Assembly (NCBI RefSeq): GCF_932294415.1
Contig: NC_065536.1
Location: 13,175,974-13,239,973, forward strand
DNA from: Quercus robur
Taxonomy: Eukaryota > Streptophyta > Magnoliopsida > Fagales > Fagaceae
Direction: 5' to 3'
DNA length: 64,000 nucleotides
The translations under genes were made by a program, and so were the position numbers. A model generated the notes under the pieces. That model ran no database searches. It saw only the letters and a program-made list of their open reading frames with translations, and was not told the DNA's origin. Position 1 is the first letter of the stretch. Each line of letters starts with the position of its first letter. Positions 4,446 to 57,270 of this stretch are shown here, one piece after another.

Positions 4446-4615
4446 AGAGAAATGTTACGTCCACAATATTTTCCCAATAAATCTTAGTTGGTAGGTTGTT
4501 ACGAGTTTTTAATTTGAATCTACCATTGAAATTACTTCGTTACCCACTAGAAATAGTAAGTAACAACTTGCTAATTAGGATTTGTTGTAAAAATATTGTG
4601 GACATAACATTTCTA
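4446..4615. mobile_element. 170-bp MITE, hAT type (8-bp TSD)
   Basis: The ends form inverted repeats: the left reads AGAAATGTTACGTCCACAAT from 4448 and the right is its near-perfect reverse complement ending at 4614. The element is flanked by an exact 8-bp direct repeat TTACATAA (4438-4445 and 4616-4623). Eight-base TSDs are typical of hAT transposons. No coding capacity, so this is a non-autonomous copy. Confidence 0.75.
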
Positions 4616-4623
4616 TTACATAA

Positions 4624-5640
4624 AAAATAGTATAAGAATAAAAGGATAGGGAGTGTTCACAAGACAATTAGGTTTAGGTTTAAGCCGATTCATCTTTTGG
4701 GTTTAAAAATAGTACACAAAGTGAAATAGCGGCAACATGGAAAGCTAGTAGTGGCAAAAGCTCAATAGTCAAGTTTCAATATGGAAAATCTGATACTCGA
4801 CCCAATAAAATCAGGTGTTATTTGTTTTGATTCGTTACTAACCAGCACAAATGTCAAAATCGATTGAACCTATCGACTATGGTTAAACGGGTGAGTTGGG
4901 TCCTTTAGGCGTTTACTCACACCTCTAAGTAGAATCAATGTGGTTCAGCCATAAAACATATGTCCACAATTCCAAAAATCAAAAAACTAAATCCTTTGTT
5001 TACTTAGTTAATGACATGTTAGAATGGATGCTATATTTGGAGAGGACAAGGTTTGTCTCCGACTACAAATTAATTTCACATTTTGGATTAGTATTACAAA
5101 TTGATAATATTGATTTATTCAAATCTAGAAATTACTCATGTTAATATGGAAAGTGATTACTTTCCATTATTCTCTCTCAAGATATGTACGAAATCTTTGA
5201 TGAAGAGCACGACTTCATTTCAAATTCAAAACATTAAAAAAATTGTCCTCCTAACAATTACAACAACGCCTTTACAATAGCAATCCCTCAATGAAAAATC
5301 CACAGAATTACTTCCCTCAAGATGTCACTATAGCAATAGTGCAATGAACTCTTTTGTTAAGACGCAAGACTTAATGAGCATTAAAATTTCCATTGAATAT
5401 ATGAAAAATAAAATAAGGATGTAGATAATGAAAAGGATCAATAGTGCAATCCATGTTTTACTAATATTAATATTACTTTCCATCAAATAAAAGGATCAAT
5501 GTAAGGTAGCTCCTTCATAGTTTTTAATACTAACATTTTCTCTAGTTTCCAAATTCATGGCCTAGTTCTTAAGGTCTTCACATGGATTGGTCTTGGGTGG
5601 TTTAAGCGGTGCTAAGGTCATGTTAGGTCTTAACCCACTT
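4624..5640. other. intergenic, no gene seen
   Basis: AT-rich sequence with degenerate GGGT/ACCC motifs around 4670-4925 (for example GGTTAAACGGGTGAGTTGGG), a common look for old plant repeats. The 68-residue frame at 4938-5144 shows no family features and is not supported as a gene. Confidence 0.5.
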
Positions 5641-15545: not shown

Positions 15546-15548
15546 TTA

Positions 15549-17024
15549 GGGCCTGTTTGGTTTGGTGCTAACTCAATTTTCATATCTCAACACTCAAACT
15601 TATTACTCAATTCTCATATCTCTAACTCAATTTTCCCATAACTCTATTAGTAGTGTGTTTGGCTAGAAATTCTCAGTGGTATTTCAATTCAAAAACTCAA
15701 TTTTAAGTAAAGTTGTGGGACCCACAAAAATTAATGCTCTGCAAAATGCATCCTTTCCACTTCACATCTTCATCTCTTTGAACAAAACCCAATGGCTACA
15801 ACTTGTAGATAAAAGAAGAATGTAGAGTGAAAAGAAAAAAAAAAAGCTTTGATCTCATAAAATAAACTCATAAAATGAAGCCAAAAGATCTCAGTTTTAA
15901 GGGTTTGATGTTGATATTTGAAGCTCTAATCTCATGTCATAAACCCAGTATGTAGCACAAACATCACAAACCCATAAAATACCCCCAAAAAACTAAAATA
16001 ATCTAGTCCGAAAATCAAAGCCAAAAATGCCTAGAAAAAGACTATAACAAGCCATCAAGAAAAAAGAATGAAAAAAAAAAAAAAAAAATTTCGGTGTGAA
16101 GAGATGAAGAAACAAAGAAATATAAAAGAGAAGAGAAGAATGGTGCTAGAGTGAAAAAAAAAAAAAAAAAAAAAAAAAACAGCGTGTGACCTAAAGAAGA
16201 AAGAAAGAAAAATAAGAAAGAGAATTGATGCGACAAGACTTTAGGTGGGTCCTGTTATCTTTATGTATTTACTAAAATGCCACGTAACTCATATCTTGAA
16301 AATATGAAAACACCAAAATTGTGTTTTCAGTTTCCAACATTCAAACTCAAAATTTTGGAATTTTTTTTTAAAATAACAATAAATATTAAACAATTTAGTT
16401 AATTGTCATATTTCAAAACAATTTTGAAAAATAACATCTCGAGTATCTAAAACTCGAGTTCCAGATGGAACTCGAGTTTTTAAGTCTCGACTTGGAGAAA
16501 AAAAATTGCGCTGAAAATCGAGTTTTAGAGACTCGATTTTCATAAATTGCAAAAAACGCCGCTATAGGTCTATAAAACGTCACTATAGGGCTTAAAAACG
16601 CCACTATAGGACTCCTTAAGCCTGTACTTATAAAAAATTTTTTTGCAGGAAAACGTCGCTATAGGGTTTTAAAACGTCACTGTAAGTCTTAAAAACGCCA
16701 CTATAGGTTAAATTTTTTTTGCATGAAAAGACTTGAGATATAAAGCGAGTCTTCCAGACTCGAGTTCTAATATGGATCTCGAGTTTCAAAAACTCGAGAT
16801 GTTAGTTTTCTAAATTGTTTGAAAACGTGCCTAACTAACTAATTTGAATGGTTGAAGGAAGCTGATTTGCACAATACCTCCAAAATTTTGAGTTTTTTAG
16901 TGATGGAAACAAACATCCAAAATCAATCCAAACATTGCATCATTTATGGAATCCACGAGTTTTATATGATGGATTATGAAAATTGAGTGACATCATCCAA
17001 TTTTTAGACTATCCAAACAAGCCC
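15549..17024. mobile_element. 1.48-kb PIF/Harbinger-type element with internal inverted repeat
   Basis: The left end is GGGCCTGTTTGG and the right end, reverse-complemented, is GGGCTTGTTTGG. TTA is duplicated on both sides (15546-15548, 17025-17027). This TIR and TSD combination is typical of Tourist/PIF-Harbinger MITEs. Subterminal ACTCAATTTTCAT occurs near both ends. The interior contains a large inverted repeat whose arms match from ACTCAAAATTTTGGA (about 16345 and 16882) inward to ACATCTCGAG, enclosing the CGCCACTATAGG tandem core at 16555-16706. No transposase is seen. Confidence 0.65.
16422..16840. repeat. CTCGAG-arm inverted repeat with CGYCRCTATAGG core
   Basis: The arms carry several CTCGAG sites and match as ACATCTCGAG...ACTCGAG versus its reverse complement (about 16431-16540 and 16725-16810). 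The core at 16555-16706 has six 14-bp motifs of the form AACG(C/T)C(A/G)CTATAGG. Read on the minus strand they run in the order GTGGCG, GTGACG, GCGACG, spacer, GTGGCG, GTGACG, GCGGCG. The same ordered triplet and a similar CCTGCAAAAATTTTTTTATAAG-like spacer are present at 55799-56019. Confidence 0.8.
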
Positions 17025-17027
17025 TTA

Positions 17028-41523: not shown

Positions 41524-43171
41524 ATTTCCCGGTACGTTTGTTCCTGTTTTGCATTGTGATTGTGGGAGGCTTTTAGAGAGGCAATGGACGGTTTAACTAC
41601 AATACGTATAATACTATATTATGAGAGAAACAGTTGAGCATAAGTTTTGGCAAAAAGTGGCAGAAATCAAGTAGATAAAATAAGAGAACATACTCACTGT
41701 CCCTCTTTTGTACAGCTAATTATGTTGCTAGATATTATGGGTTGGGGTAACAGTAGAGAATGACCCTCTTTTGTTAAACAACCCAATAATGTAATATATT
41801 TGGTATAAACTCTTTTCTTATTGTCTAATAAAAAAAAGTTCTTTGTGTAAATGAATTTTTTTTTTTTTTTTTAAGCTGTACTTCTTTCATCACTTTTGGA
41901 AATTTCTAAACTTTTTCTGCAGGTTGAAAAATCTTAGATTTAATAAGGGTGTGTTTGGTAGCAATTTTTTTAAAACTGTTCTAGAACACTAAATTTTTTT
42001 CCAAGATTGGGAAAACATTTGTTTCTTGCTATTTTTAGAATAAAAATTATATTTGACATGATATAACTCAAAGTCTCAAAACCCATTTTGAGAAAATAAA
42101 AGACAATTCCCTCAAAAAATAAAATAAAATAAAATGAAAGGCAAAAAAATTGTTGCTAACCAAAAATTATTTTATTTGAAAACGTATAATTTTTAAGAGC
42201 TGAATAGGTAAAACAAATTCCATATATTTCCAAAAACATCTCATGGGCAACGCATCCAAATTGAAGTTTTAACTTTTAACCACAAATCATCACCAAAATA
42301 AAATCCATGTTACAACTTATGTAATCGTGTTGCTCATTTGGCTGAGCTGCTAAAGAGGATGAAGAGGTGTTAATCTTGTTGGAAGAATGTCTCTCCTTTT
42401 TCCATTCAATTGTTGAAAATGATATTTTTTGAATAAAAACTCTTTATCTTTTTGGTTTTTTTTTTTTTTTTAATATTAAAAAACAAAACCTTCTAAGCAT
42501 TTATATTTCAATAATGTATAGTTTTATTGCCAGGCCTTCACCTTGGACTAGATTAAGGTTTTGGATGTGTCAAAATTTAGAATAGGCCTGGGCCAGAAGT
42601 TCTTCCAGAACAGAACAGAAGTTCGGTTTGCATGCTATTGCCTATAGGTTGGTCATGTTTTGGTTTAGGTTGGCTATAATGTCCCAGTCACAATCAATTT
42701 ATTTTTCAATTATGGTGATTGAAAAAAAAAAAATTTTGAGTTTCCTTATTTTCCCCTCATCAACAGCAAAGATTAAATTCTAATTCTCACTTACCTTTTG
42801 TAGGGGAAACTGAATGTCATATTTTGTTTACTAAAAAATTGTCTTAGCTTCCAAACTTTATAGAAAATTATTTGAGTTCAAGTAGTCCCACAAAAAATAT
42901 CTTTTTGCCACCAATCTCATGGGTATTTTAAAGGTTTCATGGGTATTTTGCTTATTTTAGAGATTTTGAGGATATATTGGTCATTTTAGTAGTTTTTTAG
43001 CATATTTGGTGATTTTATAAAAATCGGCTTTGGGTAGGGTATGGATATCTATGGATAAACAGACTGGATAACAATTGGGTAAGGTAATCAGATATCCATG
43101 GATAAATTAATTGGGTCAGGTATATATGGGTATACCCTACCCATGGTCATCCTTAATTATTTGTAAACAAT
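41524..43171. other. intergenic, no gene seen
   Basis: AT-rich. At about 43025-43150 GGGTA/GGATATC(C)ATGGATAA motifs repeat in both orientations, probably an old dispersed element. Nothing else recognisable. Confidence 0.4.
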
Positions 43172-43590
43172 AGGTGATGAACACTTATTTCGTCACCAAA
43201 AATACCTCCATCTTAATATTGGATGATGAATTTGGAATTTCGTCACCTTCGGTTAGTCTTTGGTTAAACAATAGGTGACGAAAATTTACACCTACATCCT
43301 AATATTGGGTGACGAATTTAGAATTTTGTCACCTCTAGTAAGTCTTTGGTGACATGAATATTTTGTCACCCTAGGTTTGCCTTTTTTTATGACCTATAGT
43401 GACGAAATAAATATTTCGTCACCAATTGGTACATCTTTGCTGACGAAATATTGATTTCGTCACCAATTTTAAAATTTTTATAATATTTGATGACAAATTC
43501 TTCTTTTCCTCACTAAATGTTATTATTTGGAGACGAAATTGTTTACTTTCACTAGATTTCGTCACCATAGCCTGCTTTTGTTGTAGTAAA
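43172..43590 (-). mobile_element. CACTA-type terminal fragment with subterminal repeats
   Basis: The right edge reads TTTGTTGTAGTA, the inverse of TACTACAACAAA and near the canonical CACTACAA(C/G)AAA terminus. Inside are about ten copies of GTGACGAAAT or its complement ATTTCGTCAC in both orientations (e.g. 43192, 43247, 43279, 43399, 43420, 43440, 43456, 43556), as expected of En/Spm subterminal transposase-binding repeats. The opposite terminus is not seen, so it is a fragment. Confidence 0.6.
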
Positions 43591-55452: not shown

Positions 55453-57270
55453 CATGCTAAAGTTTTGCATTGCCAACCTCCAACAGTCAAACTATTATTA
55501 TTTGACACACCGCAGTCTTCATCTATAATCTATATGGTCTATTGTACTTGAAAGTTCTTCTATGTTGGGCTTAAACTTAGCCAACTGGCTAAAGTCCAAA
55601 AACTGTAACTGGGTCCATTGAGGTCATGTTGATAGCAAATGTGGGCCAAAATGGCCCATTAGCATGTTTTTTTGAACTATTTAGCAACAGAGCACTGTTT
55701 CGGAACTATATAGCAATATACCACTTTTTCTGGTACTCGAGCTTGGTGAGCTCGAGTACCATGTTTTTTTATCCACTATCGTCTCATATTCAAGGAGCCT
55801 TATAGTGGCGTTTTTAAGCCCTATAGTGACGTTTTCGGGCCCTATAGCGGCGTTTTTAAGCCCCCATACCAGGTTAAGGGGCTCTATAGTGACGTTTTCA
55901 GGCCCTATAGCGGCGTCTTCCTGCAAAATTTTTTTATAAGTCCCCATAACAGGTTCAAGGGGCCCTATAGTGGCGTTTTTAAGCCCTATAGTGACGTTTT
56001 CGGGCCCTATAACGGCGTTTTTTTTTTTGAGAAGATGTTTGACCAGTAAAAAACATGGTACTCGAGCTCACCAAGCTCGAATACCAGAAAAAGTGGTATA
56101 TTGCTATATAGTTCCGAAATAGTGCTCTGCTGCTAAATAGTTCAAAAAAACATGCTAATGGGCCATTTTGGCCGCAAATGTGAGTAACTTCAAGGGCCCA
56201 AAGTGGATGCTTGTTACAAAATTATAACTTTTAGGGGGTAGAATAATTGGTAAATTTTCTTAAACCAGTGAAGGCTACTGATAATTTGCTACCAGGTCAT
56301 TGGACTAGGTTAAATAAACTATTTGGTATATTAGGGAGTTGTTATATTGCTAATATTCAAATCTGCCTTACGTTTTCTTATGATGCAATGATTTGGGCCT
56401 CAAGAATCCAGATAAATTGTTACATTATCCATGGGCCACTTAGGAGGAGCTGAGACTTGAGACACTGAAATGAAAGGGGCCTAAATCCCATATAAATCTC
56501 AAGTTATCAGTCCACGGAATGCAAGAGCACAAAATGGGCTTTAGCTGCAAATTGAGGTGGGATTATGAACTTTGATTTTTAATTAAGCCCATAAATGACT
56601 TTACAGTATTTGGCCCATAATAACAGTAATATACTTGTCTTCCATTTACAACACTTCAACCCAGGTTCCATATATTTCAGCCATTGAATGCTTCTGCGTA
56701 TTGCAAACCATGAAACTTTGGCCCATTTTTTAAACCTACATTTTACACAAATCTTGGAGCTGGGCTGAAGTGTTTTGTATATATTACTAGTCCAATGTTC
56801 TGGAGAAAAAATAAAGGACTTAGTTTTTTAGTTTCATGGGTCCAGTAACTTCAAGCCCAACCAAGTATCAGAGCTCAGCATATAGCCCACGGGTTTGCTT
56901 AACTTTGTTTGTAAAATGAAATGAGCACAGCCCAGCAGTTAAATTGATAAAGTTAAGATGAATAAATGAATATACAAAGAAAGATGAATATATATATAAA
57001 TGAATAATTTTATTTAAAAATAATAGTGTCTCCTATTAATGAAAAATTGAGGGAGAGTTGTTTGAGATAATTTGGTAATGTTTGAAAGGAGAGTTTGATT
57101 AATACACTAGTAGGAAAAATTGATTTGATTTAAGTGGATGGAACAAAAAATAGGTAGAAGAATATTTAAACAAATAACATTAATATAAGTAATTAAAAAA
57201 AATATTAATTAAGATTGTAATAAAGGGAGTGATTTTAGATAAAATAAAATAGCAGAAAATTGGAGAAAAT
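55453..57270. repeat. tandem segmental duplication, copy 1
   Basis: Starts CATGCTAAAGTTTTGCATTG and ends AAAATTGGAGAAAA; the same landmarks in the same order recur in copy 2 (57358-59690), e.g. CCAACTGGCTAAAGTCCAAA, AAAGTGGATGCTTGTTACAA, GACACTGAAATGAAAGG, AACCCAGGTTCCAT, GGGCTGAAGTGTTTT. Contains the Mutator-type insertion 55644-56173, absent from copy 2. No coding function seen. Confidence 0.85.
55644..56173. mobile_element. 530-bp Mutator-type element (9-bp TSD)
   Basis: An exact 9-bp TSD GCAAATGTG lies at 55635-55643 and 56174-56182. Long terminal inverted repeats begin GGCCAAAATGGCCC and run about 130 bp, ending in CTCGAG-containing sequence (TGGTACTCGAGC). The core 55799-56019 has eight CTATAG(T/C)G(G/A)CGTT motifs. 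The paralogous site in copy 2 of the duplication lacks the element, confirming insertion. Nine-base TSDs plus long TIRs indicate a MULE; there is no transposase. The Ile/Gly-rich frame on the minus strand is the repeat core translated. Confidence 0.88.

Follow-up and report, generated by a model that had tools for sequence, protein, structure and literature searches.

Ordered motif arrays with a 21-bp period in short MULE-type elements of Quercus robur that differ in their ends

The VANDAL elements of Arabidopsis belong to the MULE group of transposons. VANC proteins are described to bind short motifs that recur in tandem in the non-coding DNA of VANDAL elements, and the motifs of VANC6 also occur in the unrelated element AT9TSD1 (PMC5735166, PMC10398659). 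For CACTA transposons (En/Spm, Tam1, Tgmt), binding of TNPA-like proteins to the subterminal repeats is reported (PMC2613891), and one of the VANDAL accounts mentions a MURA-induced hypomethylation of the TIRs in the MuDR/Mu system of maize (PMC10398659).

The window, i.e. the whole stretch of 64,000 nucleotides analyzed here, contains 17 sites matching CTATAGYGRCG with at most one mismatch, compared to 0.49 on average and at most 3 in 100 shuffles. Five of the sites (all exact) lie at 16557-16706, eight (six of them exact) at 55800-56017 and four elsewhere; a sixth unit of the first array, TTACAGTGACG at 16675-16685, deviates at two positions. Neighbouring motif pairs with up to three mismatches were found nine times in the window and not once in 100 shuffles. 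The occurrence of the motif at both places, claimed by an earlier sequence-only reading of this DNA, was thus confirmed, but the 14-bp unit proposed there has to be replaced by a period of 21 bp, composed of a conserved 16-bp block (CCTATAGYGRCGTTTT) and a linker of 5-6 bp. The first array (16553-16707, minus strand) consists of two triplets GTGGCG-GTGACG-GCGRCG in 21-bp steps, at a distance of 55 bp between the closing unit of one triplet and the opening unit of the next. The second array (55799-56021, plus strand) comprises eight units, grouped as 3, 2 and 3, which are spaced by 21 bp within the groups and by 42 and 60 bp between them. Once the strands are matched, the order GTGGCG-GTGACG-GCGGCG is the same in both arrays, as had been stated, except for one unit of the first array, which reads GCGACG in place of GCGGCG. 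The similar spacer noticed earlier (CCTGCAAAA...TTTATAAG) is indeed present between the triplets of both arrays, and both are surrounded by the CTCGAG-bearing inverted arms that had been described.

The first array had been assigned to the TTA-flanked element at 15549-17024, whose termini are GGGCCTGTTTGG...CCAAACAAGCCC (ends read as GGGCCTGTTTGG / GGGCTTGTTTGG) and which lies between TTA copies at 15546-15548 and 17025-17027. On account of these termini and the TSD, we take this outer element to be PIF/Harbinger-Tourist-like. However, the real carrier is a nested non-autonomous MULE-type element of 523 bp (16358-16880, minus strand, as is its array) with the terminus type T8 (GAGGTATTGTGC / GAATTTTTTTT). 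It is bordered by plus-strand copies of the 10-bp TSD CAAAATTTTG at 16348-16357 and 16881-16890, and it contains CTCGAG-bearing inverted arms at 16411-16466 (plus strand) and 16770-16825 (minus strand), which are 84% complementary. The TSD being palindromic, the boundary was verified by means of four relatives whose ends are the same or almost so, all with TSDs of 9-10 bp. One of them, L004, has the same ends and lies between copies of TGGATATCC (or of CTGGATATCC, if one base is given to the duplication); the other three, L018, L052 and L056, have the 10-bp TSDs CCATGATCCA, TGTCCTTTTG and GGTCCATGTT. As the nested element possesses its own TSD and has relatives elsewhere, the TTA-flanked element is its landing site, and the first array is located inside a MULE-type element that jumped into this older element. 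That the array is owned by the TTA-flanked element, within whose borders it does lie, has practically no probability, given the nested boundaries with their 10-bp duplication, the four relatives elsewhere in their own TSDs, and the clusters listed on C1 (see below), 29 of 30 of which are MULE-type and one of which has a CACTA end. Hence, although outer ends and TTA fit PIF/Harbinger (Tourist), the array is not this element's own.

For the second array, the reported 9-bp TSD was recovered: GCAAATGTG at 55635-55643 and 56174-56182 (both plus strand) encloses a non-autonomous MULE-type element of 530 bp (55644-56173, plus strand) of the terminus type T1 (GGCCAAAATGGCCCATTAGCATG). Its terminal inverted repeats of 126 bp at 55644-55769 (plus strand) and 56048-56173 (minus strand) are 98% complementary and contain CTCGAG palindromes at 55731-55761 and 56056-56086. 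The two window elements accordingly have GGCC ends (T1) and GAGG-GAAT ends (T8) with TSDs of 9 and 10 bp, and in neither of them were CACTA ends with a 3-bp TSD found. At two T8 insertions the target sites are palindromic (CAAAATTTTG at 16348-16357 and GGATATCC in the flanks of L004), which perhaps reflects a target preference. Elsewhere in the window, CACTA-like subterminal repeats (TGACGAAAT...ATTTCGTCACC) extend over 43154-43588 up to TTTTGTTGTAGTA; their motif differs from that of the arrays, and CTATAGTGACG is shared once.

In the genome (786 Mb), motif pairs with a gap of 9-11 bases gave 4019 matches (1994 + 2025) and the reversed control none, whereas pairs with a gap of 1-8 bases were detected only three times. 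The pair pattern had no match in the viral and prokaryote sequence collections, and a search for the motif letters in the main text of a collection of papers returned no transposon paper, judged by title. Among the matches listed, 30 clusters at 1.86-24.5 Mb of C1 were grouped by eye and all examined; each includes at least one exact motif pair, so that decayed arrays such as that of L057 escape. Short MULE-type elements account for 29 of these clusters. Their TSDs, obtained by parsing anchored at the ends, are exact in 25 cases (8-10 bp) and have one mismatch in three; in L014, which the parser missed and which was taken by eye, 8 of 10 positions agree. An unanchored TSD scan was abandoned as it produced false duplications inside palindromic arms. 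Duplications in the range of 8-11 bp, as expected for MULEs, are thus present in 29 of the 30 listed clusters and in both window elements. Long inverted ends are present as well, with aligned lengths of 117-266 bp in T1-T5 and T7, where those of T2-T4 take in part of the arrays; the ends of T8 are degenerate. The array-bearing elements measure 337-860 bp.

Seven terminus types were distinguished among the 29 listed clusters: T1 (GGCCAAAATGGCCCA, nine clusters), T2 (GGCAAAAATGGCCCATTACC, two), T3 (GGCGATTTTGGCCC, two), T4 (GGACAAAATGGGCTT, eight), T5 (GGARAAAATKGG, two), T7 (GGAGATTCTAGC and similar, three) and T8 (three). An additional type, T6 (GGAAAAAATGGCTAAATAG), is represented only by L001 from the search with gaps of 1-8. 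The arrays are unidirectional in the 11 T1 elements, while in eight of nine T4 elements arrays from both arms point at each other, and an inverted pair occurs at one end in two of three T2 elements and in both T3 elements. The carriers of the array therefore form a set of non-autonomous MULEs whose ends have diverged into at least eight terminus types. Of two circumstances regarded beforehand as adverse to the sequence-only reading, a nested copy within 15549-17024 is a fact, whereas a single terminus type for all copies was not found. On the whole, the arrays are real and abundant; what had been misread is the unit length and one of the carriers. Two of the loci show further features. In L002 (1159-2367), some 40 bp separate a T2 element from a T1 element, both of which have a duplication of their own (CTGTATAGGG, AAGGTTCACC). 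In L039, a T3 element with a 10-bp TSD (4596-5338) lies between two frames which, judged by eye, could both derive from a single lectin/S-domain receptor kinase gene.

The remaining listed cluster, L036, has a CACTA-type end (CACTACAAGAAATCTGGG at 5196), and its subterminal units include CTATAGCGACGTTTT twice at a spacing of 22 bp. This might indicate that the block is common to CACTA transposons and that one DNA-binding protein serves two superfamilies. We regard this as very improbable since the units of L036 mostly alternate in orientation and read GCGACGTTTT instead of forming the ordered triplet, and since CACTACAAGAAA followed by the motif within 30 bp has no match in the genome.

Spacing and order of the units were counted at 24 loci (19 C1 clusters, L001-L004 and the window; L003 and L004 overlap, by which a step or two is counted twice). 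Out of 165 gaps of up to 120 bp, 113 measure 20-22 bp and 92 exactly 21 bp, with further peaks at 42 and 60-61 bp. The most frequent of the 113 steps are GTGACG to GCGGCG (41), GTGGCG to GTGACG (35) and GTGACG to GTGACG (10). T4 deviates in that its steps are partly 22 bp long and the order is GTGACG-GTGACG-GTGGCG or three times GTGACG. A period of 21 bp would also correspond to seven codons, and in some copies one frame is open, namely 128 amino acids of seven-residue repeats in the window (55684-56067, minus strand) and 162 and 176 amino acids in L039 and L042. A coding array nevertheless deserves next to no credence: 62 of 224 consecutive motif distances are not multiples of three and the frame is not kept between copies. 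The 128-amino-acid frame is a by-product of the 21-bp period.

The consensus of the block, CCTATAGYGRCGTTTT, was derived from 244 units of the 29 listed MULE-type clusters. Beyond the searched motif, it includes a leading C (96%) and a trailing TTTT (95-99%), which are the only parts of the block free of bias from the motif search. Within the single families, the conservation of TTTT amounts to 88-100%, apart from the last T in T4 (77%) and T6 (75%, only four units). In the linkers, the information content falls to 0.2-0.8 bits. Identities were compared in 14 of 37 parsed elements (five T1, one T2, two T3, two T7 and four T8, with T4, T5 and T6 excluded); in the set of 37, the T1 element of L014 is three bases short at one end, and the T8 elements of the window (T8_win16k) and of L004 carry one extra base. 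Between T1 and T8, the 15-mer is 95.7% identical, a value biased upward because clusters were chosen by exact pairs and units kept with at most two mismatches, while the interleaved linkers are only 64.1% identical. The spacer between the triplets reaches 81.8%, counted as gapped identity without a random baseline, and the outer 84 bp reach 70.0%. Within T1, the corresponding values are 97.9% (15-mer), 89.2% (linkers), 86.3% (spacer) and 89.2% (outer 84 bp). In all comparisons with T8, 93-99% for the 15-mer are opposed to values down to 62-78% for the linkers. Random local segments compared with the T1 ends by the same gapped counting gave 70.9%, so that the ends of T1 and T8 are not alike by identity. 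Outer-end identity alone was for this reason discarded as a criterion.

The contrast between block and linkers bears on the question of why the arrays are alike. The arrays might be functionless minisatellites, expanded by slippage in a common ancestor, that hitchhike in families which are simply young. The number of motifs, varying from 2 to 16, and a recurring, slippage-like higher-order period of about 100-103 bp would be in line with this, as would the identities within T1 of 89% for the ends and 86% for the spacer, which point to copies that are not very old. On the other hand, it is difficult to reconcile with the divergence of the linkers next to a nearly invariant 15-mer between families, and with a period and an order that are common to T1 and T8 despite their unlike ends. 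We therefore consider it unlikely.

One T8-T1 pair and one T8-T3 pair were aligned locally; in both cases the alignment covered the two-triplet core only (138/161 and 138/160) and ended at both array edges. Together with the outer ends of T8 and T1, which are no closer than random sequence by identity, and with the similarity of the spacer, this is what would be expected if recombination or template switching had moved the array as a module from one MULE family to another whose ends are unrelated. In that case, the likeness would be due to recent exchange and not to constraint. The two T8-T7 alignments differ in this respect. That of L004 and L046 breaks off 82 and 107 bp before the element ends are reached, as capture of a module would predict, whereas the similarity of L018 and L037 extends, in both elements, up to a point 22 bp away from the end. 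The ends were additionally compared by shuffling with one or two representatives per family. Those of T1, T2, T3 and T7 are mutually linked (z 8.0-21.9), as are those of T4, T5 and T7 (z 9.2-16.2), and T1 is linked to T4 and T5 (z 5.8 and 6.6), while T2 and T3 are not linked to T4 and T5 (z 1.2-2.5). Against the two T8 arms, the ends of T6 gave z values of 4.8 and 2.0, and those of T8 and T1 gave z 1.5 and 2.8. When the T8 arms were anchored to the arms of other families, 0-60 of 1000 random segments scored equally (28 non-independent tests), which leans to homology. These values hint that the elements may be one MULE group with fast-evolving ends, T8 included. Moreover, both window carriers are MULE-type, the TTA/GGGCCTGTTTGG element is only a landing site, and CACTACAAGAAA with the motif at 0-30 bp did not occur in the genome, which weighs against a transfer between families. 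Exchange of whole modules would carry linkers and 15-mer alike, so that their different conservation favours constraint. Of the two interpretations offered by the sequence-only reading, a binding array kept by selection is thus preferred, and a module passed between families is the weaker one, possible but rather doubtful.

An autonomous source was searched for by means of the domain PF10551, which yielded 1249 candidates, 150 of them being scored and listed above the cut-off. Among these 150, five places lie on C1 below 24.5 Mb, none of them, by eye, within 10 kb of the 30 clusters. Two transposase loci, L057 and L058, were examined; neither of them owns the array, and neither of their transposase elements has the ends of the array families, so that no autonomous carrier was found among them. 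L058 contains no motif. In L057, a T5-type element with a decayed array adjoins a transposase element with different ends, and the locus was rejected as an autonomous carrier because the motifs sit in the separate T5-type element. The transposase element of L057 (2082-7145) has a frame of 743 amino acids and inverted ends of about 100 bp (CTCTCCCGTTTCTTTTTCTCC). Places with equal or nearly equal scores are found on C3, C5 and C35, and at least 245 bp to its left recur with 100% identity on its right.

Taken together, we lean, by a narrow preference, towards a protein-binding array that has been kept under constraint within this set of non-autonomous MULEs while the outer ends diverged into at least eight terminus types. 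The block CCTATAGYGRCGTTTT recurs mostly in steps of 21 bp, approximately two turns of the DNA, which places its copies on one side of the helix. Ordered triplets of blocks are seen in most families, with CTCGA-bearing inverted repeats just inside the ends. We infer that a protein from an autonomous relative may bind the blocks cooperatively, and that this protein could either assist in transposition or counteract silencing in the manner of VANC or TNPA. Copies without the array would then no longer be mobilised or kept unmethylated. The similarity of the inter-triplet spacer (82%, gapped and without a random baseline) runs counter to a binding model, by which it is not required. Judged from the conservation pattern, the array is probably under constraint in this small MULE-type set, and a function can be ascribed to it with moderate confidence. 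It is a more tentative idea, for which we see only a limited chance, that one trans-acting protein reads the internal 16-bp block at a 21-bp pitch and not the terminal repeats.

Should that be the case, a single autonomous source could activate many MULE families with diverged ends, by demethylation or by assistance in transposition, and there would be a layer of control in which the interior of the element is the common identity tag, leaving the ends to evolve freely. As a binding platform, the array would make it readily testable how non-autonomous elements with diverging ends remain visible to their activator, for which one genome provides thousands of natural motif pairs, and, alongside VANDAL and VANC, it would stand for a MULE group that is characterised by motif arrays in its interior. 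Otherwise, the elements would still constitute an abundant small MULE-type set with an ordered core that can mislead annotation, as almost happened with the TTA-flanked host.

The arrays share several properties with described systems. Like VANDAL arrays, they consist of a short motif repeated densely and in one orientation in non-coding DNA, and they expand and contract (PMC5735166, PMC10398659). The VANC motif, YAGTATTAY or AGTTGTCC, is unlike the present one, however, and VANDAL arrays are described upstream of element genes and in their introns, whereas the present arrays reside in elements of a few hundred base pairs with long inverted ends. With CACTA elements they have in common arrays of sites of 12-20 bp inside the ends, which in CACTA are bound by an element-encoded protein and needed in cis (PMC2613891). 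What separates them from CACTA are TSDs of 8-10 bp and mostly GG ends instead of a 3-bp TSD and CACTA ends, and a reversed pattern of conservation, since CACTA elements have conserved ends and a diverging subterminal motif. Tetris of Drosophila virilis, reportedly an inverted-repeat (foldback) element bearing tandem repeats, resembles them in this combination but is an animal element. MuDR/Mu has long TIRs, a 9-bp TSD and non-autonomous copies driven in trans, as do or may do the present elements; to our knowledge, however, MURA binds within the TIR, and Mu elements have no internal ordered array. In their layout, the arrays described here look most like the VANC and TNPA systems.
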